This document shows, piece after piece, positions 1-30,550 of a stretch of DNA of 42,052 nucleotides (the stretch's first letter is position 1; the number at the start of each line of letters is the position of its first letter). Source of the DNA: Bacillota bacterium (GTDB taxonomy: Bacteria; Bacillota; TC1); the NCBI GenBank assembly GCA_024635955.1, contig JAGXHX010000061.1, forward strand, positions 1 to 42,052, read 5' to 3'. The translations under genes were made by a program, and so were the position numbers. The notes under the pieces are model-generated. The model was not told the DNA's origin, ran no database searches, and was given only the letters and a program-made list of their open reading frames with translations.

Positions 1-599
1 AGATTACCCTCGATGTGATTACAATATTTTAATAGAGCCCTTGGACTAAGACTCGTTTTAACTTCTACTACCATATTTAAAAACATACCTTGATCTTCAT
101 ATCCAAATGGATCTGTTTCATAAACTTTACTTATTTTAGTAACTTCAATTTCTTTATTAAATTCTAATTGGTGTATAGCAGAATTCAAATAACCTTCTCT
201 ATCGCCTAGATTACTACCAAGTCCTATATAGGAAATCAATTCACGCTTAATTTCTTGTTGAATACCAAAATAATCACAAGTTACAGGGATAGGAACTTCT
301 GGTTTCATAACAAATACTTGCACAGATTTAATTCTAAAGAACTTATCGATAATTGCTTTGCCAATATCATAACCTAACTGTTCCAAAATTTTGTATTTTT
401 TACTGAAAAACACCTCATTTACAACATCATAAATATCAACATAACTTACAGAATCATCCAAATCTCCGCTTGTATGAGATAAACTTAATTCCCCATAAGC
501 CTCAATAGTGACTCTAAATCGTTGTCCTAAAATATTCTCCTCGGGAAAATAGCCGTGGTAGCCATAAAATTCAAGGTTGCTTAATACAATCTTATCCAA
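1..599 (-). CDS. folBK: Bifunctional dihydroneopterin aldolase (FolB) / 6-hydroxymethyl-7,8-dihydropterin pyrophosphokinase (FolK), C-terminus truncated by window edge
   Basis: Manual reverse-strand translation from TTG at 599: MDKIVLSNLEFYGYHGYFPEENILGQRFRVTIEAY...SVQVFVMKPEVPIPVTCDYFGIQQEIKRELISYIGLGSNLGDREGYLNSAIHQLE...; FolB start motif plus HPPK signature YIGLGSNLGDRE in one open frame. RBS-like GAGGAAA upstream. Not in ORF track (TTG start, runs off edge). Confidence 0.88.
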   Translation of the reverse strand, partial: MDKIVLSNLEFYGYHGYFPEENILGQRFRVTIEAYGELSLSHTSGDLDDSVSYVDIYDVVNEVFFSKKYKILEQLGYDIGKAIIDKFFRIKSVQVFVMKPEVPIPVTCDYFGIQQEIKRELISYIGLGSNLGDREGYLNSAIHQLEFNKEIEVTKISKVYETDPFGYEDQGMFLNMVVEVKTSLSPRALLKYCNHIEGN

Positions 600-1335
600 A
601 ACATTTCCTCCTATCTATTTCCTTTTCTAAATAATATGATTCATTAATTTTATTTAAGGTCTTTTGATCACAAATTATATTATTTTCTCTTATACCTTCT
701 ACTTTCAATATTTCTATAAGAGAATTACTGATAAAAATACCATCTGAATGTATAAAGTCATCAATAGTATAATCCCCTTCAATACAATCATTAGATTTTA
801 TTATAACTTCTCTAACTATTCCATTTAACAAACCATTTTTTAAAGCTGGTATATGAATTATTCCGGATTTTATAAAATATATATTTGCTATTGAACAACT
901 AGTAACAAAACCTTTTTCATTTAAATAAATAGTATCTAAAAAACCTGATTTTCTAGCTTTATTAAGTTCAATCAGTCTTTCTAAGTAATCATTTGTTTTA
1001 TATAAATATTTTTTGTCATTACTACTTCTAATAATAGAAGATAAATCTAAAAAACCAGACTCATTATATTTTACATCTCTAAATGATAAAATACAACCAT
1101 CAATACTACAAACTAATCTTCCACCAAATTTCCCATTCTTAGGAATATTATTATAAAGAAATGCTTTAATACTTTTTTTATTTATCTTTAAATCAAATAA
1201 ATCATTACAAGCTTTTTCTAATCTGTTTAAATGTTTATCAAAGAAAAATGGATGACCATCTTCAATTAAAAATGTTTCAAAAACACTATTGTCATATTCG
1301 ATTATGCTATTATTTTTATCAATTTTATAATTCAA
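592..1335 (-). CDS. pabC: Aminodeoxychorismate lyase (class IV aminotransferase)
   Basis: ORF 247 aa; class IV aminotransferase-like (FLDTIYLNEKGFVTSCSIANIYFI, GLLNGIVREVII); follows pabA-pabB. Confidence 0.85.
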   Translation of the reverse strand: MNYKIDKNNSIIEYDNSVFETFLIEDGHPFFFDKHLNRLEKACNDLFDLKINKKSIKAFLYNNIPKNGKFGGRLVCSIDGCILSFRDVKYNESGFLDLSSIIRSSNDKKYLYKTNDYLERLIELNKARKSGFLDTIYLNEKGFVTSCSIANIYFIKSGIIHIPALKNGLLNGIVREVIIKSNDCIEGDYTIDDFIHSDGIFISNSLIEILKVEGIRENNIICDQKTLNKINESYYLEKEIDRRKCFG

Positions 1336-2641
1336 GCTCCAAACTCCTTTTTAAACCTAATCCTTTATGTTCAGTTTCAATAAATTCAGAATTACACTTT
1401 GATTTCCAGGTTATACCACCACCAACATTATAATTGAATATATCATCTTCAACGACTATGGTTCTAATTGCAATATTAAAATCAAAATCCCCATTATTTT
1501 TAATATATCCAATTGCACCAGTATATATACCTCTAGGAAACTCTTCAAGTTCATCAATAATTTCTATAGCTCTTTTTTTAGGTGTACCAGTTATTGATCC
1601 TCCAGGAAACAATCTATAAAGAACATCAAAGGGACTTAATCCAGCTTCAATTTCGCTTGTTATGGTGCTAACCAAATGATGAACTGTTTCATAGGTTTCA
1701 AGTTTGAAAAGCTCTTTTACACTAACGCTTCCACTTTTACTCACTCTACTTAAATCATTTCTTGCTAAATCAACAATCATTAATAATTCGCTTTTATCTT
1801 TTTCACTTTTTTTTAGTTTATATCTATTTATATAATCTGAAATAACATTATTCCCTCTTTCAATTGTACCTTTTATAGGACGTGTTTCTAATATGCCAAA
1901 AGTTGATTTTATTAGTCTTTCTGGAGAGCTTGACAATATAGACCAATTGTTATGTCTAATAAAGGCTGAAAAAGGTGCTGGATTAGTATTTCTTAACTTT
2001 AGATACATGTAATTATAATTTATATTATTTATCCGTCCGGTAAACCTTCTGGTATAATTGATTTGGTAAACGTCACCTTCATAAATATAATCTTTGATTG
2101 TTTTAATTTTTTTTGAATATTCCTTGAATCTTTCATGATATGAAAATTGATAAATGTTACTAGCAACCTTCTTGTTTTTCCTTTTATAATTTTCAATCCT
2201 TTTATAGATTTCAATAGCATTCTCTTCATATTCATGGTCAAAATATATTGAAAACTTGTTATCATTAATATTCTTTACTATAACAATAGGATAATAACCT
2301 AAAAAACCTAGTGGAATTTTAGAGTTAAAAGTAAACCTGCTTTTAACATCTATGAATGTCATCCCTAAATCATAAGTTAAAAAAGAAAAAAAACTAGGAA
2401 AGGTGATTTTATCTGCACCTTTCCTGTATCTTTTATAAAAATCATTTAATTTTTCAATTGCAACTAAACCACCTGAATCAATCACAATAAAATCTATAGG
2501 GTTAATCCCGATATATGTATAAAGGCTTTGTGTATCATTTTCCCTATTACTTTCTAACATAAAAAAATAATCTTCATCTTTAAATATATCTACTATATCT
2601 TCTATTATTATATTTTTTTTTAAATCAATATGTTTTTCCAT
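1325..2641 (-). CDS. pabB: Aminodeoxychorismate synthase component I
   Basis: Chorismate-binding motifs PIKGTIERG, SELLMIVDLARNDLSRVSKSGSV, FPGGSITGTPKKRAIEIIDELE, GYIKNNGDFDFNIAIRT; PIKGT is PabB-type. Confidence 0.93.
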   Translation of the reverse strand: MEKHIDLKKNIIIEDIVDIFKDEDYFFMLESNRENDTQSLYTYIGINPIDFIVIDSGGLVAIEKLNDFYKRYRKGADKITFPSFFSFLTYDLGMTFIDVKSRFTFNSKIPLGFLGYYPIVIVKNINDNKFSIYFDHEYEENAIEIYKRIENYKRKNKKVASNIYQFSYHERFKEYSKKIKTIKDYIYEGDVYQINYTRRFTGRINNINYNYMYLKLRNTNPAPFSAFIRHNNWSILSSSPERLIKSTFGILETRPIKGTIERGNNVISDYINRYKLKKSEKDKSELLMIVDLARNDLSRVSKSGSVSVKELFKLETYETVHHLVSTITSEIEAGLSPFDVLYRLFPGGSITGTPKKRAIEIIDELEEFPRGIYTGAIGYIKNNGDFDFNIAIRTIVVEDDIFNYNVGGGITWKSKCNSEFIETEHKGLGLKRSLELEL

Positions 2642-3209
2642 TATTTATCCTTAAAAAATTGTTAAATAAATCTAATCCTTGTTCTGTTAATATTGCTTCA
2701 GGATGATACTGTACTCCATATAACATCATCTTTTTATTTTCAATGCTCATTATGGTTCCATCCTTTAATTTTGATGTTATAGTAAACATCTTATCTAAAT
2801 TACTTTCATCAATTGATAATGAATGATATCTAGTAACCTTTAAAGGGTTTTTTATATTGATATATAGTCCATCATTATCATGATAAATTTTATCAACTAC
2901 ACCATGTACAGGATGCCCTTTTATCAAAGTTCCCTTATGCATATAATTTATACATTGATAACCAAGGCAAACTCCTAATATTGGTATTTTACCTTCGTAT
3001 AATCTAATTAACTCAAGTGATAATCCAGCATTTTCAGGTCTTTTAGGCCCTGGTGAAATTATTATATGATTGATATTATTAAAATTAATGTCAAATATAC
3101 TAATATCGTCATTATTTTTCACAATGACATCTTGTTTTAAGATTTTTAAATATTCATATATATTAAATGTGAAAGAATCATAATTATTTATTAAAAGTAC
3201 CATTTTCAT
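2625..3209 (-). CDS. pabA: Aminodeoxychorismate/anthranilate synthase glutamine amidotransferase component
   Basis: Class I GATase: INNYDSFTFNIYEYL, GVCLGYQCI, GVQYHPEAILTEQG. Confidence 0.92.
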   Translation of the reverse strand: MKMVLLINNYDSFTFNIYEYLKILKQDVIVKNNDDISIFDINFNNINHIIISPGPKRPENAGLSLELIRLYEGKIPILGVCLGYQCINYMHKGTLIKGHPVHGVVDKIYHDNDGLYINIKNPLKVTRYHSLSIDESNLDKMFTITSKLKDGTIMSIENKKMMLYGVQYHPEAILTEQGLDLFNNFLRINNGKTY

Positions 3210-3302: not shown

Positions 3303-4076
3303 ATGTATGACGAATTAAAAGTTGCTTTAAAAGCAGGCGAAATCATGTTAAGAAATGGCTCAGAAACTTTCAGAGTCCAATATATAATTAAAAAAATGCT
3401 TACTGATTTAGATATCATTTCTAAAGATGTGATTGTAATTGGAAGAGCAATTATAGTTTCTATTGAGATGAAAGATAAATATCCGATAACTTTGACTAAA
3501 AGCATTGTAAAAAGAATGAATAACTTACAAAAGTTATCATTAGTTACTAAAGTAGCTGATGATTATTCTAAACATAAAATTAGTATCAATGAAACCATGA
3601 ATAAACTTAATAATATAGACAATATTATAACATATCCATTTTGGTTAAGAGTAATTGGTACAGGTTTGGGAACATTTTCATTTACATTGGGCTTTGGTGG
3701 TTCATTTACTGGTGCGGTTGCAATTTTTTTAATTACTTTGTTTCCAGCATATTTCATAGAAATATTATACAAGAATAATGTTCCATACTTTATATCTAAT
3801 ATACTTGCCGGAGCATTAATCAGTACCTTAAGTCTTATTGTCTTTAATTTTTACCCATTATTACAATATGATAAAATGATTGCAAGTGCAATTGTTATTC
3901 TTACTCCCGGAATTGCTGCTATAACTGCTATTCGAGATGTTGTTAATGGAGATTTCATTACTGGTGCCAGTAGAGGAATTGAAGCTATTCTATCAGCAAC
4001 TGCATTAAGCATTGGAGTAGGCTTTATCTTTGCTTTATATGTATTTATTACAGGAGGTGGAGTATGGCAATTCTAG
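3303..4076 (+). CDS. Threonine/serine exporter family protein, ThrE N-terminal half (DUF1212)
   Basis: ORF 257 aa; GEIMLRNGSETFRVQYIIKKM and multi-TM tail typical of ThrE/DUF1212. Confidence 0.82.
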   Translation: MYDELKVALKAGEIMLRNGSETFRVQYIIKKMLTDLDIISKDVIVIGRAIIVSIEMKDKYPITLTKSIVKRMNNLQKLSLVTKVADDYSKHKISINETMNKLNNIDNIITYPFWLRVIGTGLGTFSFTLGFGGSFTGAVAIFLITLFPAYFIEILYKNNVPYFISNILAGALISTLSLIVFNFYPLLQYDKMIASAIVILTPGIAAITAIRDVVNGDFITGASRGIEAILSATALSIGVGFIFALYVFITGGGVWQF

Positions 4077-4513
4077 AAATAATTATGATGGGTGTAGGCA
4101 CAGGTTTTATAAGCATAGCCTTAGAAGCTAGTAAAGAGGATTTACCAATAAATGCTATGCTCGGATCTATTTGTTGGGCTACCTATTTATACGCATTACA
4201 AACTTTTGATAATAGTTTGCTATCTGTATTTTTAGCTTCGTTTTTAATTTCTTTCTTATCAATATATTTAACTAGAAGAATCGGAAAACCTCTACAAGTA
4301 TATTTAATAGCTGGTATTATACCACTTCTGCCTGGTCTGAATATTTTTTATATGGTATTTGGTTTTGTTAATCAAGATTCCAAAGCAATCATAGAAAACG
4401 CTACTCTTACTATTCAAATACTTGCAATTATAGTTTTAAGTCTAGTATTTGCTTCATCGATTACACGATTGCTAAAACGTTTAAATTTCACTAAAAAAAG
4501 ATCAGGGAATTAA
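4064..4513 (+). CDS. Threonine/serine exporter family protein, ThrE C-terminal half (DUF3815)
   Basis: ORF 149 aa; multi-TM; IAGIIPLLPGLNIFYMVFG; overlaps the previous gene by 13 bp. Confidence 0.8.
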   Translation: MAILEIIMMGVGTGFISIALEASKEDLPINAMLGSICWATYLYALQTFDNSLLSVFLASFLISFLSIYLTRRIGKPLQVYLIAGIIPLLPGLNIFYMVFGFVNQDSKAIIENATLTIQILAIIVLSLVFASSITRLLKRLNFTKKRSGN

Positions 4514-4552: not shown

Positions 4553-6226
4553 TTATAGTAAATCTTTATAATTTGTTAAAATACTATTTATTGTAGAAGG
4601 CGCCAATTGACCTAATGAGCATAAGGATGATGATTCCATCAATTGAGTTAATGTAGCTAATTTTTCTAAATTGATTTCATTCTTTTCACCTTTGCTAATT
4701 TTATCTAATAATTCTGCTGTTCTTTTAGTTCCTTCTCTACAAGGCACACATTTACCACATGATTCCTTAACTGCAAATTCCATTGATTGCTTAGCTAAAT
4801 CCATCATTGATGTTTTACCAGCAATTACATAGATACTTGTTCCTTCCATTACACCAGAAATTAATCCATATTTTGAAGGTGTATCTAAATCTACCCCTTT
4901 ATCAAGTTTATTTAGAGGTAAAATTTGACCAATAGGACCACCAATTCTAACTCCTAATAATTCACCAATAGCACCACCAGCGTAATTATCAATAATTTCT
5001 TTTATTGTTGTGTTTGTTGGAACTTCAACAAGTGCAGGTGTCGTAACATCACCTTCAATTGATATGATTTTCATTCCAGGATTTTTTTCTGTTCCTATAG
5101 CTTTATATGCTTCAACTCCTAAATTAATTACATCAGCAACATTTATTAGAGTTTCTACATTTGCAACTAAATTAGTATAAACTATAGCAGCAACAGGACA
5201 TACTGACATACAAGTACCACATTTTATACATGCGTTTGGATCAATAATATGTAATTTTTTAGGTGCACTTTCAATACAAAAAACAGGGCAGTTTTTAGCA
5301 CATTTTGTACAACCTATGCATTTATCAGTAATAAAATACTCTAAAGGTTTACCATTTATACCAAATGACCTATTATTAATTTTTTTCTCACGATGTATAT
5401 TAATATCTCTTTCAATATATTCATCAACTTCAACTTCTCTTGGACTAATGAAGTTATCATCAGAAAATCTTACTTCTATATCAAAGGAAAAGTCCTTGCC
5501 CAATACCTTAACACCTAAAATGCCAGCTGCATATGAATCTTGAACTGCTTTTTCCATCTCTTTAGTAAAAGTTGTATAAATGTATCCACGATTTGCTCCA
5601 AGAGAATATCCAGCAATAATCATACCTTCAATCAATTTAAATGGATTGTCATTAATTATTTTTGCATCTAAAGAGTTGTTTTTGATATCAGCATTACAAA
5701 TAATGCCTTTATTATTAATATCTAAATTATTAGCAATTAATTCCCATTTAACACCAGCTGCAAAACCACCATCACCTCTACCTTTAAAACCTGAATCTTT
5801 TAAAGTTTGAATAGTATTAACACTTGAATTCGATAATACTTTTGATAAGGCACTAAATCCTCCATTAGCAATATAAGTATCAATATCCTTTAATTTACTT
5901 AAAGAATATATCTCATTTTTCTTAATTGACTCAATATCCTTTGAAGTATACTTTTTGTTTACAGATGCTACATAATTGTTTTGTACTTCTGTATAATCAA
6001 CAGACTGGTCAGTTAAAAATGAATAATATTGTATTAAATTATCTATACGAGAAATTGGTGCTCCTAATATCTCTTCAATAAGAAGAACAATATCTTTAGG
6101 AATATAACCAATTAATTCTTGAGATTTTAACAAAGCAGCCATTAAAACGCCCTTTGCTTCTCTATTGTCGTTCATATATTCAACTAATTTATCAACTATA
6201 ACTTTGTTTTTTTCTATTACAAACAT
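4553..6226 (-). CDS. NuoE(truncated)-NuoF-like subunit with inserted 2[4Fe-4S] ferredoxin domain; putative electron-transfer partner of the formate dehydrogenase
   Basis: NuoE helical N-terminus (KSQELIGYIPKDIVLLIEEILGAPISRIDNLIQYYSF), NuoF-like DSGFKGRGDGGFAAGVKW, CNADIKNNSLDAKI, KLIEGMIIAGYSLGANRGYIY, then CIGCTKCAKNCPVFCIESAPKKLHIIDPNACIKCGTCMSVCPVAAI, then NuoF SLBB region and CGKCVPCREGTKR. Confidence 0.85.
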   Translation of the reverse strand: MFVIEKNKVIVDKLVEYMNDNREAKGVLMAALLKSQELIGYIPKDIVLLIEEILGAPISRIDNLIQYYSFLTDQSVDYTEVQNNYVASVNKKYTSKDIESIKKNEIYSLSKLKDIDTYIANGGFSALSKVLSNSSVNTIQTLKDSGFKGRGDGGFAAGVKWELIANNLDINNKGIICNADIKNNSLDAKIINDNPFKLIEGMIIAGYSLGANRGYIYTTFTKEMEKAVQDSYAAGILGVKVLGKDFSFDIEVRFSDDNFISPREVEVDEYIERDINIHREKKINNRSFGINGKPLEYFITDKCIGCTKCAKNCPVFCIESAPKKLHIIDPNACIKCGTCMSVCPVAAIVYTNLVANVETLINVADVINLGVEAYKAIGTEKNPGMKIISIEGDVTTPALVEVPTNTTIKEIIDNYAGGAIGELLGVRIGGPIGQILPLNKLDKGVDLDTPSKYGLISGVMEGTSIYVIAGKTSMMDLAKQSMEFAVKESCGKCVPCREGTKRTAELLDKISKGEKNEINLEKLATLTQLMESSSLCSLGQLAPSTINSILTNYKDLL

Positions 6227-6227
6227 C

Positions 6228-8903
6228 TTAGGCCTCCTTTGCTAATTTTACTGCAGTAACTTTATATTCAGCAGTTTTAGTTACTGGATCATATGCTGAG
6301 TTTGTTAACTCATTAACAGGTGACTCATGAAAATGGAAGGTCATATAGATGGTTCCTGGTTGAACGCGTTTAGTGATTTTCACATTAGCAGTAACAGAAC
6401 CTCTTCGTGATGTTACTCTAACTATACTATCTTTATTCAGATCATATATTTTAGCATCTTCAGGATGTATTTCTACTCTCTCCACTGGGCTTATTGCATC
6501 TAAGGTTTCAGAAATTCTAGTAGATACATTATAGTGATATAACATTCTACCAGTATTCATTAGTACTGGATACTCATCATCTACTAATTCTGCAGGTGGT
6601 AGGTATTCAATAGGTAACATCAGACCTTTTCCTCTAACAAATTCACAAGCATGCAAAAATTTACTTCCTGGACTGTCTATTGTAAGGCAACCCCATTGTA
6701 AGCCATCTTTATCAATTCTGTCATAAGTAATACCAGCATATGTAGGCATTGTTTTTCTTATTTCTTCAAATATTTCTTCTTCGGAATTATAATCAAAACC
6801 TTTATAGCCTAATCTTTTAGCAATTTCTGCTACCATTTTCCAGTCAAGCATTACGCCTTTTGGTGGTTCTACTGCTTTCCTTACTCTTTGTACTCTTCTT
6901 TCAGTATTTGTAAAAGTACCATCTTTTTCGGCATATAGAGTAGCCGGAAGAATAACATGAGCTAATTTAGCTGTTTCTGTTAAGAAAATATTTTGAACAA
7001 CTAATAACTCTAAGCTTGACATCGCTTTTCTAACATGGTTAGCATCTGGATCTGTCAATACTGGATCTTCACCCATAACATACATTGCCTTTACATCACC
7101 ATCAACAATTCCATCAAGCATCTCTGGTATTCTTAAACCTTTATGATCACTTAATTTCACACCCCAGTATTTCTCGAACACTTCAATATTATCTTTATCG
7201 TCACATGCTTTGTATCCTGGGAAATAGTTTGGTAGAGCAGCCATATCACATGCTCCTTGAACATTATTTTGGCCTCTCAAAGGATTAATCCCAGCATGTT
7301 CAAATCCTATATGGCCAGTTAGCATGCCCAGATTAGCTAAATTCATTACATTATCAGTACCAGTAGTATGTTCTGTTATACCTAATGTATAGAATATACC
7401 AGCTTTCTTAGTATTTGCATATAATTTTGCTGTTTTGTAAAGCATATCTTTACTAATACCTGTAATTTCTTCAACAACTTCTGGAGGATAATTAGCTACA
7501 TTCTCTTTTAGGCTTTCATAACCTGTGCATCTATTTGCAATGTAATCAGCATCTTGCCAATTTTCTTTAATAATAATGTGCATTAATCCATTAATTAAAG
7601 CAGCATCTGTTCCTGATTTTAATCTAAGATGATATTTAGCCATAGTTGCTAATTCTGTTTTTCTTGGATCTATAACTATTAATTTTGATCCTTTTTGAAC
7701 AGCTCTTTTCATTTTATTACCAATAATCGGATGAGCTTCAGTAGCATTTGAACCGATGATGAACAATACATCATTACCTTCAACTTCTTCAATTGAATTA
7801 GTCATAGCTCCACTACCTAATGTAGTTGCAAGACCTGCAACTGTAGGAGCATGTCAGGTTCGAGCGCAATGGTCAACGTTATTTGTTCCAAAACCAGCTC
7901 TAAATAATTTTTGAAAAATAAAATTATCTTCATTTTTACAACGAGCTGATGATAAGCCAGTTATTGAATCAGCCCCATACTTATCTTTGATTTCTTTAAT
8001 TTTATTCACAATATATTCAAAAGCTTCATCATATGACACTTCTACAAACACACCATCTTTTTTTATTAAAGGAGTCGTTAATCTTTGTTTACTACTAATC
8101 ATATCTGTATGATATCTACCTTTTACACATAAAGAAGTCCCATTAACTGTTGCTTCTTCAAGTGGCGTAACGCCAATTACTTTTCCATCTACAACATTCA
8201 AATCAAAGTTACAACCAGTACCACAGAAAGGACAGGTGGTTCTAACTTTTTTAATTTTAGAAGGTTCTATATTTGCAAGTTGTTTATTAATCAAAGAACC
8301 TGTTGGACAAACACTAACACATTGACCGCATAAGCGACAATTATCCGTGCTTATAGGTAAATCAAATGCTGTAGCTATTTTCGTATTAAACCCTTTACCC
8401 AAGAAATCAATTGTATGTGAAATTTGTATTTGATCACAAGTGCTTACACATTGTCCACATAATATACATTTATTAGGGTCACGAATATATGCTTCATTAG
8501 CAGAATCAATTTCGTAATTTTTCTTCTCTCCATCATAACTACCTTTAAGAACTTCATATTCTTTTGCATATTCTTGAAACTTATTATTACCCACTTTCAC
8601 TTGAGTAAATAATCCTTCCGGGTGATTAGAAATCAATAAATCCAGTATTTCTCTCCTGGATTTCAGAACTTTATCAGAATGGGTTTGTATTACCATTCCC
8701 TCCAAAGGTTTAGTTGAACATGATGCGGCTAAGTTTTTTCTGCCTGTTATTTCTACAACACACATCCTGCATCCAGCAAATAACTTCAATTTTTCATTAT
8801 AACAAAGAGTTGGAATATCTATGCCATTTTCTCTGGCAATTTCCAGCAGACTCTTTTCCGCACTTGTTTCCATCTTTTGACCATTAAGTGTAATTGAAAC
8901 CAT
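6228..8903 (-). CDS. fdhA: Selenocysteine-containing formate dehydrogenase alpha subunit (Sec at codon 350, in-frame UGA at 7854-7856)
   Basis: The two listed ORFs (7854..8903 and 6228..7805) are one frame interrupted by a single TGA: ...[38 protein letters not shown]..., matching the Sec-FDH motif (CARVUHGPSVAGL in E. coli FdhF). N-terminus has [2Fe-2S] and 2x[4Fe-4S] motifs. Confidence 0.95.
7807..7856 (-). promoter_or_regulatory. Bacterial SECIS element (UGA plus hairpin) in fdhA
   Basis: RNA after UGA: CAU GCUCC UAC AGUUGCA GGUCU UGCAACU ACAUUAG GUA GU GGAGC; 7-bp apical stem AGUUGCA/UGCAACU, loop GGUCU, basal stem GCUCC/GGAGC. Apical GUUGCAGGUCU resembles the E. coli fdhF SECIS (GGUUGCAGGUCUGCACC). 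Confidence 0.9.
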
Positions 8904-8908
8904 AAATG

Positions 8909-9385
8909 TTATTCTCCTTTCAAAAATCTAAATTTAATAAAATCAATGATATTCATAATATCATCAATATTAAAGCAACTATCATTTTCCACTAAATCTG
9001 GAATATTATCAGTAATTATTCCAATTAGGTTATCTAAATTATAATCTATTTCTTTTATGTTTTCTCTTTTTATATAAAATTTTGGGTAAGCAAGTTTTTT
9101 AAAACCTTCTAAAATTATTAAATCAATATCCTTTAAACTTAATATTTTAATAATATCTTCAGGTGATTCTTCTCCGATTAATAAAAAAACTTCTTTAGCC
9201 CCACTTTGTAAAAATCTATCTGTATCTTTGATTTCAGCTATAGAGTTTCTATTTTCTATATGACCATGATGTTTTATTACAGCAATTTTATAATCTTTAT
9301 TGATTTCTTTCAGTATTTTACAGATCAATGTAGTTTTACCTGAATTTGAATATCCTACAAAAGAAATAACAGGTTTAGTATCCAT
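8909..9385 (-). CDS. mobB: Molybdopterin-guanine dinucleotide biosynthesis protein B
   Basis: P-loop GYSNSGKTTLICKI, VIKHHGH, LIILEGFKK. Confidence 0.9.
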   Translation of the reverse strand: MDTKPVISFVGYSNSGKTTLICKILKEINKDYKIAVIKHHGHIENRNSIAEIKDTDRFLQSGAKEVFLLIGEESPEDIIKILSLKDIDLIILEGFKKLAYPKFYIKRENIKEIDYNLDNLIGIITDNIPDLVENDSCFNIDDIMNIIDFIKFRFLKGE

Positions 9386-10608
9386 TAATTCTCATCCTCA
9401 TTGACAAATGAAAACTCTACCTTATCTCCAATTTTAACTGGTTCATCTGGATTCGTAATTTTAGCTAAAGCCGTATAGCTTAACATTGATTGAAGAACTC
9501 CGGCATTTTGTTTACCAGAAAGATGAATTTCATAACCCTCAATTCCAGTCCTAATATAAACTCTAAGGAATCTACTAATATTACTGAGTTTTTTAAAATT
9601 ATCCTTCATTATCCCTGATCTTTTTTTAGGTATATAATCATTATAACCCATAAAAAACTTAATTGCTGGCTTAGCAATTACTTCATAAGTAATTAAACTA
9701 GCAGCTGGTGAACCAGGCAATGAAATTATTAATTTATCACCAAATTGACCTGCCATTACTGGTGTTCCTGGTTTCATTTTTACTGACCAAAAGATTTTTT
9801 CTATATTCAACAAACTGTATACGTCTTGAATATAATCATAATCGCCAACAGAAACTCCTCCAGTAGTAATTATAACATCATTTTCTTCTAATGATAAATT
9901 AATTTTTTCTTTTAAATCATCAATCGTATCACCTGCAACACCATAATCATGTGCTTTTATGCCTAATTCATTTATAAAAGCTAATAAGGCATATTTGTTA
10001 CTATTATAAATTTTACCTGGTTTTAATTCTTTATTTAAATCAATAATTTCATCGCCTGAAGTAATTAGTCCTACTTTGGGTAATTGAAATACCTCAACTT
10101 CATAAATACCAATTGCAGCTAGCATTGCTACAGCGCCAGGTTTAATTTTCGAACCTTTTTCAATAATTTTAACTCCAGCTCCAACATCTTCACCAATTCT
10201 TATAATATTTTCACTTGGATTACCTTCTTTATAAATTAAAACATAATCAGATCCATCATTTGTATCTTCCTTTTTAATTACAAAATCACAAAATTCTGGA
10301 ACCTGTGCCCCAGTCATTATTTTATATACTCCCTCAACTAATAATTTAATGTCATCTCCAGCTTTAATAACACCTTGTATTTCAAACCTAATCGGATTAT
10401 CACTACTAGCTCCTTTTGTATAATCACTATTTAGACAATAACCATCAAAAGGCGATTTTCTAAAATTAGGTATTGGCACTTTAGTATAAATGTCAGTAGC
10501 TAGAATCCTGTTAAATGAGTCTTCTAGTTTGATAATCTCTTTATTTTTTTTTTTCATTTTAGATATGATAAGCTCTATCGCTCTATCAGTATCGATAAAT
10601 TTCTCCAT
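9385..10608 (-). CDS. moeA: Molybdopterin molybdenumtransferase
   Basis: MoeA motifs: RILATDIYTKVPIPNFRKSPFDGYCL, IMTGAQVPEFCDFVIKKE, VGLITSGDE, DVIITTGGVSVGDYDY, KPGTPVMAGQFGDKLIISLPGSPAAS. Confidence 0.93.
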   Translation of the reverse strand: MEKFIDTDRAIELIISKMKKKNKEIIKLEDSFNRILATDIYTKVPIPNFRKSPFDGYCLNSDYTKGASSDNPIRFEIQGVIKAGDDIKLLVEGVYKIMTGAQVPEFCDFVIKKEDTNDGSDYVLIYKEGNPSENIIRIGEDVGAGVKIIEKGSKIKPGAVAMLAAIGIYEVEVFQLPKVGLITSGDEIIDLNKELKPGKIYNSNKYALLAFINELGIKAHDYGVAGDTIDDLKEKINLSLEENDVIITTGGVSVGDYDYIQDVYSLLNIEKIFWSVKMKPGTPVMAGQFGDKLIISLPGSPAASLITYEVIAKPAIKFFMGYNDYIPKKRSGIMKDNFKKLSNISRFLRVYIRTGIEGYEIHLSGKQNAGVLQSMLSYTALAKITNPDEPVKIGDKVEFSFVNEDEN

Positions 10609-21750: not shown

Positions 21751-22107
21751 TATAATTTTGATTATTTCACCTTTTATAATATTTTTAAAACAACCTGAAT
21801 TACCTTCTATACATAGGATACTTTTCCTATGTATTTTAGAAATCTTCCAAGGTAACATGTTCTTATATATTTCTAGCACCTTGTAATTTTTATCAATAAA
21901 TATAACATCAATATTAATTTTCATAAAAAAAGTATGAATACTATTACAGGGTCTTATTAAAAGTCCTGTATCAACATTTAACTTATTCTTCCCCATCAGT
22001 CCAGTTAATCTAGATAAAAAACTATCAGCGATTACCACATTCCCCAATATATTTTGATTATCAGCATTTAAAAGTTGTATAATTTTATTTTTTTGCATTT
22101 TCAACAT
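21739..22107 (-). CDS. DUF192 (COG1430) family protein
   Basis: VVIADSFLSRLTGLMGKNKLNVDTGLLIRPCNSIHTFFMKINIDVIFIDKNYKVLEIYKNMLPWKIS; start trimmed to Met near 22098-22107; overlaps the upstream gene. Confidence 0.85.
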   Translation of the reverse strand: MLKMQKNKIIQLLNADNQNILGNVVIADSFLSRLTGLMGKNKLNVDTGLLIRPCNSIHTFFMKINIDVIFIDKNYKVLEIYKNMLPWKISKIHRKSILCIEGNSGCFKNIIKGEIIKIIEKA

Positions 22108-23173
22108 ATCTGAATAATATATCACCAGAATCAAATTTACTACCATCAACAATAAAGTGTTTACTATACACAAACTCTCCGAAATTCAAAATACCCGGTT
22201 CAGTTGCTGCAACTCTAAGTTTAATAGGATTGCTATTCTTGTTAAATGATCTATAACCCTCTAAAAATTGTGGTAAATTCATTTCAGATACTTTTTCAAT
22301 AATTAATTGATAATCGTATGATCCATCTCCGATATAAAAATCTGCTTTTTTAAATTTTTGATCAAAACTAATTATAATCCTTTTGCGACGTTTTCTCTTA
22401 AAATCCATATAATTTATAAATTTATCTTCTTCTCTACTTGTAGGTTTATAATATAATTTTCCTTTTATAAAAAATCTAGGTTTAATTCTAAAGCCATATA
22501 AAAGTTGACCGATAGCAAAAAATAGAAAAATAAATAGTAAAAATGCTCCTACAATTAATTGTAATGTAGTCATTTCTCCAAAAATGGCATTAGATAAATC
22601 TTGATTAGTGTTTTTAATTGGACTTTTATTAACAACTATTTCAGCTGGTTCTAATTCCCACTTTTGATTTGCTGTTCCAGTATAAGGTTGGGCAATTACA
22701 AAACTACCTGCGTTTAATTCTCCTTCCTTAATGCTAATAGCACTATCGGTTAAATAATTAATAAAAACAACAGATTTATCACTAAGAATTCTTATGTCCC
22801 ATAATTGGTTAAACTTGCTCAAATAATCCCACTGTTGTACTGATGCACCAGGTTCTTTTGAACCATCCTTTACTTCTATAACCTTATTGTTTTTTTCTAC
22901 ACTTAAAATATATCTTAAAGAAACATCTTTACTAATCTTAAACATTTGACTTGAATTATCGGCGCCCTGTTGTTGAATACATAAAGCTCCATTCGCATTA
23001 CTGCCATATTGAATGTCAAGATATAATCCACTATAGACATTTTTAATTCTATATAACCCATTATCAATATTATTAAACTCTGCTTTAACAGTATTATTGT
23101 TCGCAAAAAAAGTCACACTAACAATCATTAATGAAAATGCTAATAATAGTATTAATTTTGAGAAGTATTTCAT
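22085..23173 (-). CDS. Signal peptide - RICIN-type beta-trefoil lectin domain - TM - cytoplasmic domain protein, Tad-locus associated
   Basis: MKYFSKLILLLAFSLMIVSVTFFA signal; GLYRIKNVYSGLYLDIQYGSNANGALCIQQQ, PGASVQQWDYLSKFNQLWDI, AGSFVIAQPYTGTANQKWELEP (three RICIN-like repeats); TM LQLIVGAFLLFIFLFFAIGQLLYGF. Confidence 0.82.
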   Translation of the reverse strand: MKYFSKLILLLAFSLMIVSVTFFANNNTVKAEFNNIDNGLYRIKNVYSGLYLDIQYGSNANGALCIQQQGADNSSQMFKISKDVSLRYILSVEKNNKVIEVKDGSKEPGASVQQWDYLSKFNQLWDIRILSDKSVVFINYLTDSAISIKEGELNAGSFVIAQPYTGTANQKWELEPAEIVVNKSPIKNTNQDLSNAIFGEMTTLQLIVGAFLLFIFLFFAIGQLLYGFRIKPRFFIKGKLYYKPTSREEDKFINYMDFKRKRRKRIIISFDQKFKKADFYIGDGSYDYQLIIEKVSEMNLPQFLEGYRSFNKNSNPIKLRVAATEPGILNFGEFVYSKHFIVDGSKFDSGDILFRYVENAKK

Positions 23174-26491: not shown

Positions 26492-27652
26492 TTAATTTTG
26501 ATTAATTGTAATGTTCTTGACAATATTAATAAAGCTCTTAGCAATCTCGCTTCTAGAGTATTTCTGAATATATGGAATACCTTGATTTAAGGATGCTGTT
26601 ACTTTAAGATAATCATCAGGTATTTTATACAATATATCGTACCCTAGAATCTTTTCTATATCATTAGATCTAATATCACTATTTTTAGAAAATTTATTTA
26701 AGACAATATTAATTTTATTTTTAGGATAATTAAAATCAGTCAAGGTTGTTATTGCACCTTTTATATTTTTCACTGACATAATTTCTGGAGTTGTTATTAG
26801 AAATAATTTTTCAGAGAAAATAAAAGCTGGATTTGTAGCATCATTAAATCTTGATGACATATCAATAACCACATAATCATATGCTGACTGGAAAGCTTTT
26901 AATATTATTTGTATATGTTCACTATTTATAAAATCATTTACATTAGTTTCTTTACTTGCAGCTAAAACTTTTAAGCCAGATTCATGATTAGTCAAGAAAG
27001 TTTCAATGTAGTCTGAATCTACACTTTTAATATCATCAATAACATCAATTATTGTGAATTTTGGTACGATATCTAAAGCTAGAGAAACGTTTCCATAATC
27101 AAGATCAAAATCAATCAAAACAACTTTTTTATTTGTTTCTTTTAATAAACTAAGTGCTAAGTTAGTTGCGAAGAATGTTTTTCCTGTACCACCTTTTGTG
27201 CTGAACACAGAAAACACTTGCCCATATCCGCTTGTTTTTTTCCTATTTACATCCGACTTCCTATGAAATTCTAATCTTTTCTTAGTAATTTTATTAGCCT
27301 TATATATTGAATCTACAAGTTTATTAGGTTTAACAGGTAATAAAATAACATCCTTTGCTCCAGAAAACATAGCTTGATACATACTATCTTCATTTATTTC
27401 TTTTTCAATGATTATAGTTGCTTTATCAACAAATTCTGTTGATAATTTTTCAGCTACATCATAACCACTGCCATTAAAACTACTAGAAACCAATATTACA
27501 TCTACTAAATCACTATCAATTATTGCTTGAGCTTCTTCAAAATCATCAGGAGTCCTAACCATTTCAATATAATCAATATTGGCTAAAGCATTTTCTATTT
27601 CAAACCTTTCTTCAAGATTATTGTTTAAAATTATCACTTTAATCTTATCCAT
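26492..27652 (-). CDS. tadZ: TadZ/CpaE-like MinD-family ATPase with receiver-like N-terminus
   Basis: VFSVFSTKGGTGKTFFATNLALSL deviant Walker A; N-terminal receiver-like domain; Tad synteny. Confidence 0.9.
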   Translation of the reverse strand: MDKIKVIILNNNLEERFEIENALANIDYIEMVRTPDDFEEAQAIIDSDLVDVILVSSSFNGSGYDVAEKLSTEFVDKATIIIEKEINEDSMYQAMFSGAKDVILLPVKPNKLVDSIYKANKITKKRLEFHRKSDVNRKKTSGYGQVFSVFSTKGGTGKTFFATNLALSLLKETNKKVVLIDFDLDYGNVSLALDIVPKFTIIDVIDDIKSVDSDYIETFLTNHESGLKVLAASKETNVNDFINSEHIQIILKAFQSAYDYVVIDMSSRFNDATNPAFIFSEKLFLITTPEIMSVKNIKGAITTLTDFNYPKNKINIVLNKFSKNSDIRSNDIEKILGYDILYKIPDDYLKVTASLNQGIPYIQKYSRSEIAKSFINIVKNITINQN

Positions 27653-29965: not shown

Positions 29966-30550
29966 CTATATCAGTAGAATATTAAAATTACTTATTAAAA
30001 TAAACATTGTTCCTAAAGCAATTGGAAGAGCATAAGGAATATATAAATCAGAGTTTTCTTTCTTAATTTCATTAAAATAAGTAAATATTTTTTTTGCTAA
30101 ATTATTACTAGAATTCAAATAAATTAGCTTTGCTATTGGTCTAATAATAATTCCAACCATATTAATTAGCGTTTTGAGAAACTGCCTTTTATATATAACA
30201 TAAACTATAACTAGAATACCACCAGCAATTCCGGCTGCAACTAATGAATTGAAAGTGAAAATAAAACCCTTGAGTGCTCCAATAGCAGCCATAAGTTTCA
30301 AGTCCCCTGCGCCCATAAATCCAACTAAAACTGGTATTAAAAATATTAAAAATCCTAGAAGGAATCCATAGAAGCTATTTTGTAATCCAGCAAACCCACC
30401 ATGTATGGTCATTAAAACAAAACCACTTACTATTGCCGGTATAGTATACTTATTTGGAATGATTTTATATTTCATATCTTTATATGAAACTATTATTAGT
30501 AAAATAACTAATAAGAAGTTAATTATCAGTTCTATTAAAAATTTAAACAT
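29966..30550 (-). CDS. tadV: A24 prepilin peptidase (TadV/CpaA)
   Basis: SYKDMKYKIIPNKYTIP and MGAGDLKLMAAIGAL (conserved Asp motifs). Confidence 0.92.
   Translation of the reverse strand: MFKFLIELIINFLLVILLIIVSYKDMKYKIIPNKYTIPAIVSGFVLMTIHGGFAGLQNSFYGFLLGFLIFLIPVLVGFMGAGDLKLMAAIGALKGFIFTFNSLVAAGIAGGILVIVYVIYKRQFLKTLINMVGIIIRPIAKLIYLNSSNNLAKKIFTYFNEIKKENSDLYIPYALPIALGTMFILISNFNILLI

Follow-up and report, generated by a model that had tools for sequence, protein, structure and literature searches.

Within the window, a 42,052-nucleotide stretch of DNA from a Bacillota bacterium that was analysed as a whole, a selenocysteine-containing formate dehydrogenase gene (fdhA) is followed, one base after its stop codon, by an open reading frame for a NuoF-type protein with a ferredoxin domain in its interior. 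This leads to the question whether such a subunit can still exchange electrons with NAD(H) or bifurcate them, or whether it only connects the formate dehydrogenase to ferredoxin. The open reading frame, coordinates and motifs quoted in an earlier note on this DNA were borne out on re-reading of the sequence. The protein and its parts are:

4553..6226, minus strand: rearranged HydB/BfuB (NuoF-type) protein, 557 aa
5981..6226, minus strand: helical N-terminal part of NuoE/HydC, residues 1-82 (PF01257 positions 4-69 of 145, on protein residues 17-82)
5465..5902, minus strand: first part of the Rossmann-type FMN domain (Complex1_51K), residues 109-254 (Pfam and phmmer)
5747..5782, minus strand: Gly-rich loop GRGDGG...K, residues 149-160 (Gly to Asp at one position in each of the five genomes that make up the genus; Lys160 kept)
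5666..5695, minus strand: NADIKNNS--LD where HydB has NADEGDPGAFMD, residues 178-187 (Asn178 and Asp180 kept)
5345..5464, minus strand: rewritten second FMN/NAD loop SDDNFISPRE...GINGKP, residues 255-294, in register with GAGAFVCGEE...KPPFPA...GLWGKP
5171..5344, minus strand: inserted 2x[4Fe-4S] ferredoxin, residues 295-352 (Cys-303, -306, -309 and -313; Cys-333, -336, -339 and -343)
4802..5170, minus strand: VANVET strand and SLBB region, residues 353-475 (Pfam and alignment)
4556..4801, minus strand: four-helix N3/B1 [4Fe-4S] domain, residues 476-557 (PF10589, E 6.5e-25)

A Pfam search of the protein placed Complex1_51K at residues 143-267, two 4Fe-4S ferredoxin motifs at approximately 301-348 and NADH_4Fe-4S at 476-555. 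Complex1_51K and NADH_4Fe-4S passed the Pfam cut-off, and SLBB (388-421) gave a weak match below it (E 4e-4). The domain scan by HMM that the earlier note had proposed thus recovered a NuoF-type FMN domain, SLBB, the N3 4Fe-4S domain and two mid-protein Fer4 motifs, and it also confirmed the fusion of a helical NuoE part to NuoF. With Complex1_51K, SLBB and NADH_4Fe-4S, the protein belongs by fold and descent to the NuoF/51-kDa superfamily. Its best relatives in the PDB (NfnB, HoxF-like and HydB) have the same three pieces, with the ferredoxin at the C terminus. An AlphaFold2 run with five close homologues reached a pLDDT of 46.8, and a run with two FdsB-like proteins from IMG/VR added gave a mean pLDDT of 57.5 with the insert below 50, in which the fold is visible and the pocket is not; Foldseek with this low-confidence model returned HydB/NuoF as best matches. 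Residues 1-82 are 38% identical to NuoE of the sister genus (E 4e-9). The description of NuoE as truncated was correct, as only the N-terminal 69 of 145 family positions were matched and the thioredoxin-like [2Fe-2S] half is absent. Because the first 176 residues of the protein contain no cysteine, the NuoE-derived part cannot hold a cysteine-ligated cluster.

The invariant core of bifurcating Bfu enzymes has been described as FMN, BfuC and the clusters B1-B5 (PMC9304861). As in that family, cluster B1 (N3) is complete, all four cysteine residues Cys-490, Cys-493, Cys-496 and Cys-536 being kept and invariant. The B2 site is lost: the three cysteines and one histidine that are invariant in HydB have all disappeared, with Ser473 standing for one of the cysteines and neither the C-terminal His nor the other two Cys present in the protein. 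The [2Fe-2S] clusters B5 and C1 (HydB N terminus and BfuC) likewise have no site, since there is no cysteine before residue 177 and the NuoE match covers the helical part only; both thioredoxin-like [2Fe-2S] domains (HydC and HydB) are missing. The cysteines for the two [4Fe-4S] clusters of the B3/B4 ferredoxin are present, but the domain is internal instead of C-terminal.

HydB ligands and loops were numbered according to the NiFe-HydABCSL structure (PMC8880783), and the protein was compared with nine canonical HydBs. Of the HydB-invariant columns, the Gly loop retained a fraction of 0.65 and the N3 bundle one of 0.61, with a core mean of 0.47; the NADE loop retained only 0.20, the 278-310 segment 0.17 and the MGSGG loop 0.00. 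The equivalents of HydB Lys177, Asn194 and Glu287 are kept, as is the Gly-rich loop save one Gly to Asp exchange; the HydB equivalents of Lys160 and of the kept Asn are FMN contacts (PMC8880783). Lost are Glu197 (Ile or Ser), the AFM loop, GAGAFVCGE (SDDNFISPR), KPPF except its Lys, and MGSGG. The first motif had been reported as altered, and indeed NADIKNNS--LD, compared with NADEGDPGAFMD, lacks the FMN-binding Glu and carries a two-residue deletion. The NADE/AFM loop is shortened and changed, with smaller changes in the Gly loop and the GGPSG loop. The NAD(H)-contacting residues of the diaphorase subunit do not match those of an NAD-dependent formate dehydrogenase, the position of F180 reading L/A/L/F/Q and that of F307 N/N/N/N/V, with GEE changed to PRE. 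The pocket loops for FMN and NAD therefore do not conform to the Bfu family.

The second motif had been described as gone and replaced by the ferredoxin. It has diverged heavily, from GAGAFVCGEE to SDDNFISPRE, yet the loop itself is present and in register: in phmmer, residues 109-294 were collinear with T. maritima HydB 155-347 without a large gap, and an ungapped register scan placed 255-294 best on HydB 280-319 (z 5.3; runner-up 3.6). Hence the ferredoxin has not displaced the NAD-binding segment; it is an addition of 57 residues between the loop end GKP and the VANVETL strand, with all its cysteines intact. A shared His and its spacing had also raised an alternative, in which the ferredoxin brought the C-terminal linker of HydB with it and this linker now forms the preceding loop. 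This was rejected, as the register scan prefers the Rossmann loop; the linker was outside the top five registers for 248-294, 255-294 and 262-294 in the ungapped scan. The protein is of BfuB/HydB descent but was not filed as a bifurcating enzyme because it fails the cofactor tests that define the family.

The internal ferredoxin is closest, among the domains compared outside the genus, to the C-terminal ferredoxin of the sister-genus HydB (63-66%), and a C-terminal ferredoxin copy is absent from the 557-residue protein. For both reasons the domain was probably relocated from the C terminus to the interior. The sister-genus locus comprises moeA, mobB, an fdhA that has the His-Cys3 motif, a NuoE that retains the [2Fe-2S] half and a canonical HydB that ends in a ferredoxin starting SLEYFITDKCIGCTKCARNCPVSCIEG. 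FdhA is 55-64% identical between the sister genus and the window, compared with only 33-42% for the NuoF/HydB pieces outside the ferredoxin. In a tree of the NuoF core, the 557-residue family is on a very long branch and not beside the sister-genus HydB, and it was left unplaced. The protein likely originated as a rearranged Bfu-type bifurcating formate dehydrogenase subunit whose own C-terminal ferredoxin moved inward, and the simplest account of the sequences would be a deletion fusing nuoE to nuoF together with the ferredoxin relocation. The unplaced tree position counts against this account, and so does the state of the sister-genus locus itself (L048 9127-15559, genome G001): its moeA-mobB-fdhA-nuoE-nuoF genes carry many frameshifts amid intact flanking genes, owing to decay or sequencing error. 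A GRDB gene of the same genome is also broken.

Every one of the five genomes in the genus encodes the protein, the four relatives being 60-79% identical to that of the window, and the gene order moeA-mobB-fdhA-557-residue gene is common to all five. Selection on it is purifying: the overall dN/dS is approximately 0.16, with 0.05-0.13 for the ferredoxin, depending on the pair, and 0.13-0.29 for the rewritten loop. The recurrence of protein and gene order in four other genomes, together with the overall dN/dS, excludes chance or mis-assembly, and the value for the rewritten loop indicates that it is constrained and not decaying. Beyond the genus, a two-peptide pattern scan of 84,980 species genomes matched only the four genus mates, although such short patterns could miss divergent copies. 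A junction-segment HMM run on 399 genomes of the phylum matched the genus and, apart from it, only the sister-genus C-terminal ferredoxin. With a whole-protein model, matches elsewhere were only to the C-terminal halves of NuoF/HydB-type proteins; the 28 inspected were ordinary, and none of these comparison proteins has an internal ferredoxin. Their NxDEG(D/E)PG motif is kept in 27 of 28, the remaining one ending before the motif. Among plasmid records no match extended across the junction; the match with the best coverage was to an ordinary HydB-type protein. As far as this partial search reached, the architecture is restricted to one genus of uncultured Bacillota. The earlier note had suggested a survey for the same insertion beside Sec-formate dehydrogenases; within this scope it was seen in the four genus mates and in none beyond them, and the suggested little-described class of formate dehydrogenase partner is a fair description of a narrow class.

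Each of the five genomes, two of which are 98% complete, has a single NuoF-type gene. Rnf, formyl-THF synthetase (FTHFS) and tRNA-Sec are present in the genus, and neither an [FeFe] hydrogenase nor an acetyl-CoA synthase (CdhC) was found in its genomes. GRDB (glycine/sarcosine/betaine reductase type) occurs in the four genus mates and was not found in the window's 77%-complete genome. The genus (G000, G002-G005) resembles a small-genome glycine-type fermenter. The genes preceding that of the 557-residue protein, and the sites in FdhA, are:

9385..10608, minus strand: moeA, molybdenum cofactor synthesis (Pfam; same operon, order conserved)
8909..9385, minus strand: mobB-like gene, molybdopterin guanine dinucleotide synthesis (Pfam; same operon, order conserved)
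6228..8903, minus strand: fdhA, Sec-containing formate dehydrogenase alpha with N-terminal [2Fe-2S] and two [4Fe-4S] clusters (profile searches)
8583..8624, minus strand: site of the His-Cys3 [4Fe-4S] motif, FdhA residues 94-107 (its three Cys are missing from all five genomes but not from the sister genus)
7854..7856, minus strand: TGA codon of selenocysteine 350 of FdhA (tRNA-Sec in the genome)

The location next to a Sec-formate dehydrogenase gene was confirmed, with fdhA directly preceding and its TGA codon in frame for selenocysteine. FdhA scored 859 bits with TIGR01591 (Fdh-alpha; cut-off 666) and has U350 at the active-site position, as expected of a Mo/W Sec-formate dehydrogenase. RNA folding of the stretch immediately 3' of the TGA was not significant. 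The other cluster ligands of FdhA are present in the five genomes, and related formate dehydrogenases keep the His-Cys3 motif. The His-ligated cluster joins two trimers in T. maritima HydABC (PMC9499530) and is off the main electron path in R. capsulatus formate dehydrogenase (PMC7171172).

Taken together, the sequences argue, with somewhat better than even probability, for a bifurcating formate dehydrogenase simplified to a linear formate:ferredoxin oxidoreductase that carries a decommissioned bifurcating subunit. We infer how the rearrangement proceeded, which way electrons travel and to which acceptor, and that FMN is absent, as follows. The ancestor would have been a Bfu-type enzyme of FdhA, HydC/NuoE and HydB/NuoF with a C-terminal ferredoxin 'bridge', and this complex would have ceased to use NAD(H) and to bifurcate. 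NuoE would have become fused to NuoF, both thioredoxin-like [2Fe-2S] domains and B2 would have been dropped, the flavin/NAD loops rewritten, and the 2x[4Fe-4S] ferredoxin of HydB moved from the C terminus to a point between, in sequence, two segments that form the flavin/NAD pocket. Electrons from formate at the Mo/W-Sec centre of FdhA would pass through its [4Fe-4S] clusters and [2Fe-2S] to B1 (N3), and from there through the internal ferredoxin domain to soluble ferredoxin. The path would be reversible, so that CO2 reduction with reduced ferredoxin is also covered. Bifurcation itself is very unlikely because the NAD contacts, C1, B2 and B5 are lost. The chain left is that of the FdhA clusters, B1 and the two [4Fe-4S] clusters, so that the exit would be the ferredoxin-like domain, which in HydB is the prime candidate for the ferredoxin contact (PMC8880783). 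The proposal that the subunit no longer uses NAD(H) and has an all-FeS, ferredoxin-linked role is thereby well supported at the level of sequence, the loops being rewritten and the B1 and ferredoxin cysteines intact. As the genus has Rnf and FTHFS and is without [FeFe] hydrogenase or CdhC, a ferredoxin-linked formate dehydrogenase could feed or drain the formyl-THF pool: Rnf would couple ferredoxin to NAD and set the ferredoxin/NAD balance, and formyl-THF synthetase would consume or supply formate.

Whether the linear enzyme would also be free of flavin is a separate matter. Judged from the loops, loss of FMN is likely. The full version of the proposal, a flavin-free all-FeS formate:ferredoxin oxidoreductase in which the mobile bridge ferredoxin has come to lie beside the flavin/NAD pocket and a gated branch has become a fixed wire, is about evenly balanced. 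Flavin binding is still conceivable because Lys160, Asn178, Asp180, Asn356 and Glu264 (which matches the NAD-ribose Glu) are kept. FMN might accordingly relay electrons between B1 and the inserted ferredoxin, or give them another way out there, with NAD(H) unbound and reduced ferredoxin as the product. The invariance of the first four of these residues and of most of the Gly loop in the family is in keeping with this, but they may serve the fold only, and the changes of E197 to Ile or Ser, of Gly-Glu to Pro-Arg and of a loop Gly to Asp, together with the loss of MGSGG, make an FMN relay rather unlikely.

Continued dependence on NAD, by way of a redesigned pocket, appears quite improbable. The loop is in register, and Glu264 and Lys281 correspond to the Glu and Lys that contact NAD in HydB/Nqo1, but the two Phe positions that sandwich the adenine are unconserved or lost, the NADE/AFM loop is shortened, MGSGG is lost, and NxDEG(D/E)PG is kept in all but one of the 28 comparison proteins. 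Instead of soluble ferredoxin, a dedicated protein partner such as the glycine reductase system or Rnf could also dock on the insert and act as the acceptor. Rnf is found in all genomes and GRDB in four genus mates, and no separate ferredoxin gene was seen within the operon; yet no linkage of the Rnf or GRDB genes to the formate dehydrogenase operon was seen either, and 2x[4Fe-4S] domains of this kind are generic ferredoxin contacts, leaving a dedicated partner improbable.

Several known systems share parts of this arrangement. With HydB/BfuB and Fdh-Bfu Type 1 (PMC9304861; 7P5H, 7T2R/7T30), the protein has in common the NuoF core, SLBB, B1 and a 2x[4Fe-4S] ferredoxin, and with Fdh-Bfu Type 1 also a partner FdhA with BfuA-type N-terminal clusters; it differs from HydB/BfuB in the internal position of the ferredoxin, the absence of B2, B5 and C1, the rewritten loops and the lack of a separate BfuC. 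FdsB/FdsG of the NAD-dependent formate dehydrogenases of R. capsulatus and C. necator are likewise a NuoF-type diaphorase partner to an alpha subunit with N-terminal FeS clusters, but FdsB retains the FMN and NAD sites (PMC7171172) and is without the B3/B4 ferredoxin domain (PMC9304861). In HoxF of NAD-reducing hydrogenases, a NuoE-derived part without [2Fe-2S] is fused to NuoF (PMC8880783), but HoxF belongs to an NAD-reducing enzyme and has none of B2-B5, the ferredoxin domain being among the missing parts (PMC9304861). NuoF2 of Nitrospina gracilis and Kuenenia is said to lack the FMN site and to carry extra ferredoxin-type clusters, and was proposed to serve ferredoxin (PMC3578206); it can be likened by description only, and differs in being part of complex I and in reportedly retaining the NADH-binding domain and an extra [2Fe-2S] (PMC3578206). 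An FMN-free NuoF serving ferredoxin has thus already been proposed (PMC3578206); the novelty lies in the internal ferredoxin, the formate dehydrogenase context and the evidence for a domain move.

The mechanism of electron splitting at the single FMN of HydB-type enzymes is a matter of debate, and the functions assigned to B2, C1 and the mobile ferredoxin bridge are hypothetical (PMC8880783, PMC9499530). In this family B2, C1 and the mobile bridge were lost together, but the catalytic partner remains, as do both end clusters. The family is thus a naturally occurring means of telling the parts that serve bifurcation from those that serve plain electron transfer. It would offer biochemists a naturally 'disarmed' version of an electron-bifurcating machine, and would add a two-subunit, non-bifurcating, ferredoxin-linked CO2/formate enzyme of interest for CO2 reduction.

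Elsewhere in the window, positions 592-3209 hold what by eye is a pabA/pabB/pabC-like aminodeoxychorismate set, adjoining ThrE-type exporter genes at 3303-4513 on the plus strand. An open reading frame with a ricin-type beta-trefoil lectin domain (22085-23173) lies in a run of minus-strand open reading frames. A ParA/CbiA-like ATPase (26492-27652) is encoded in the same run, as is a type IV leader peptidase (29966-30550), and the run may represent a surface system of the pilus type.
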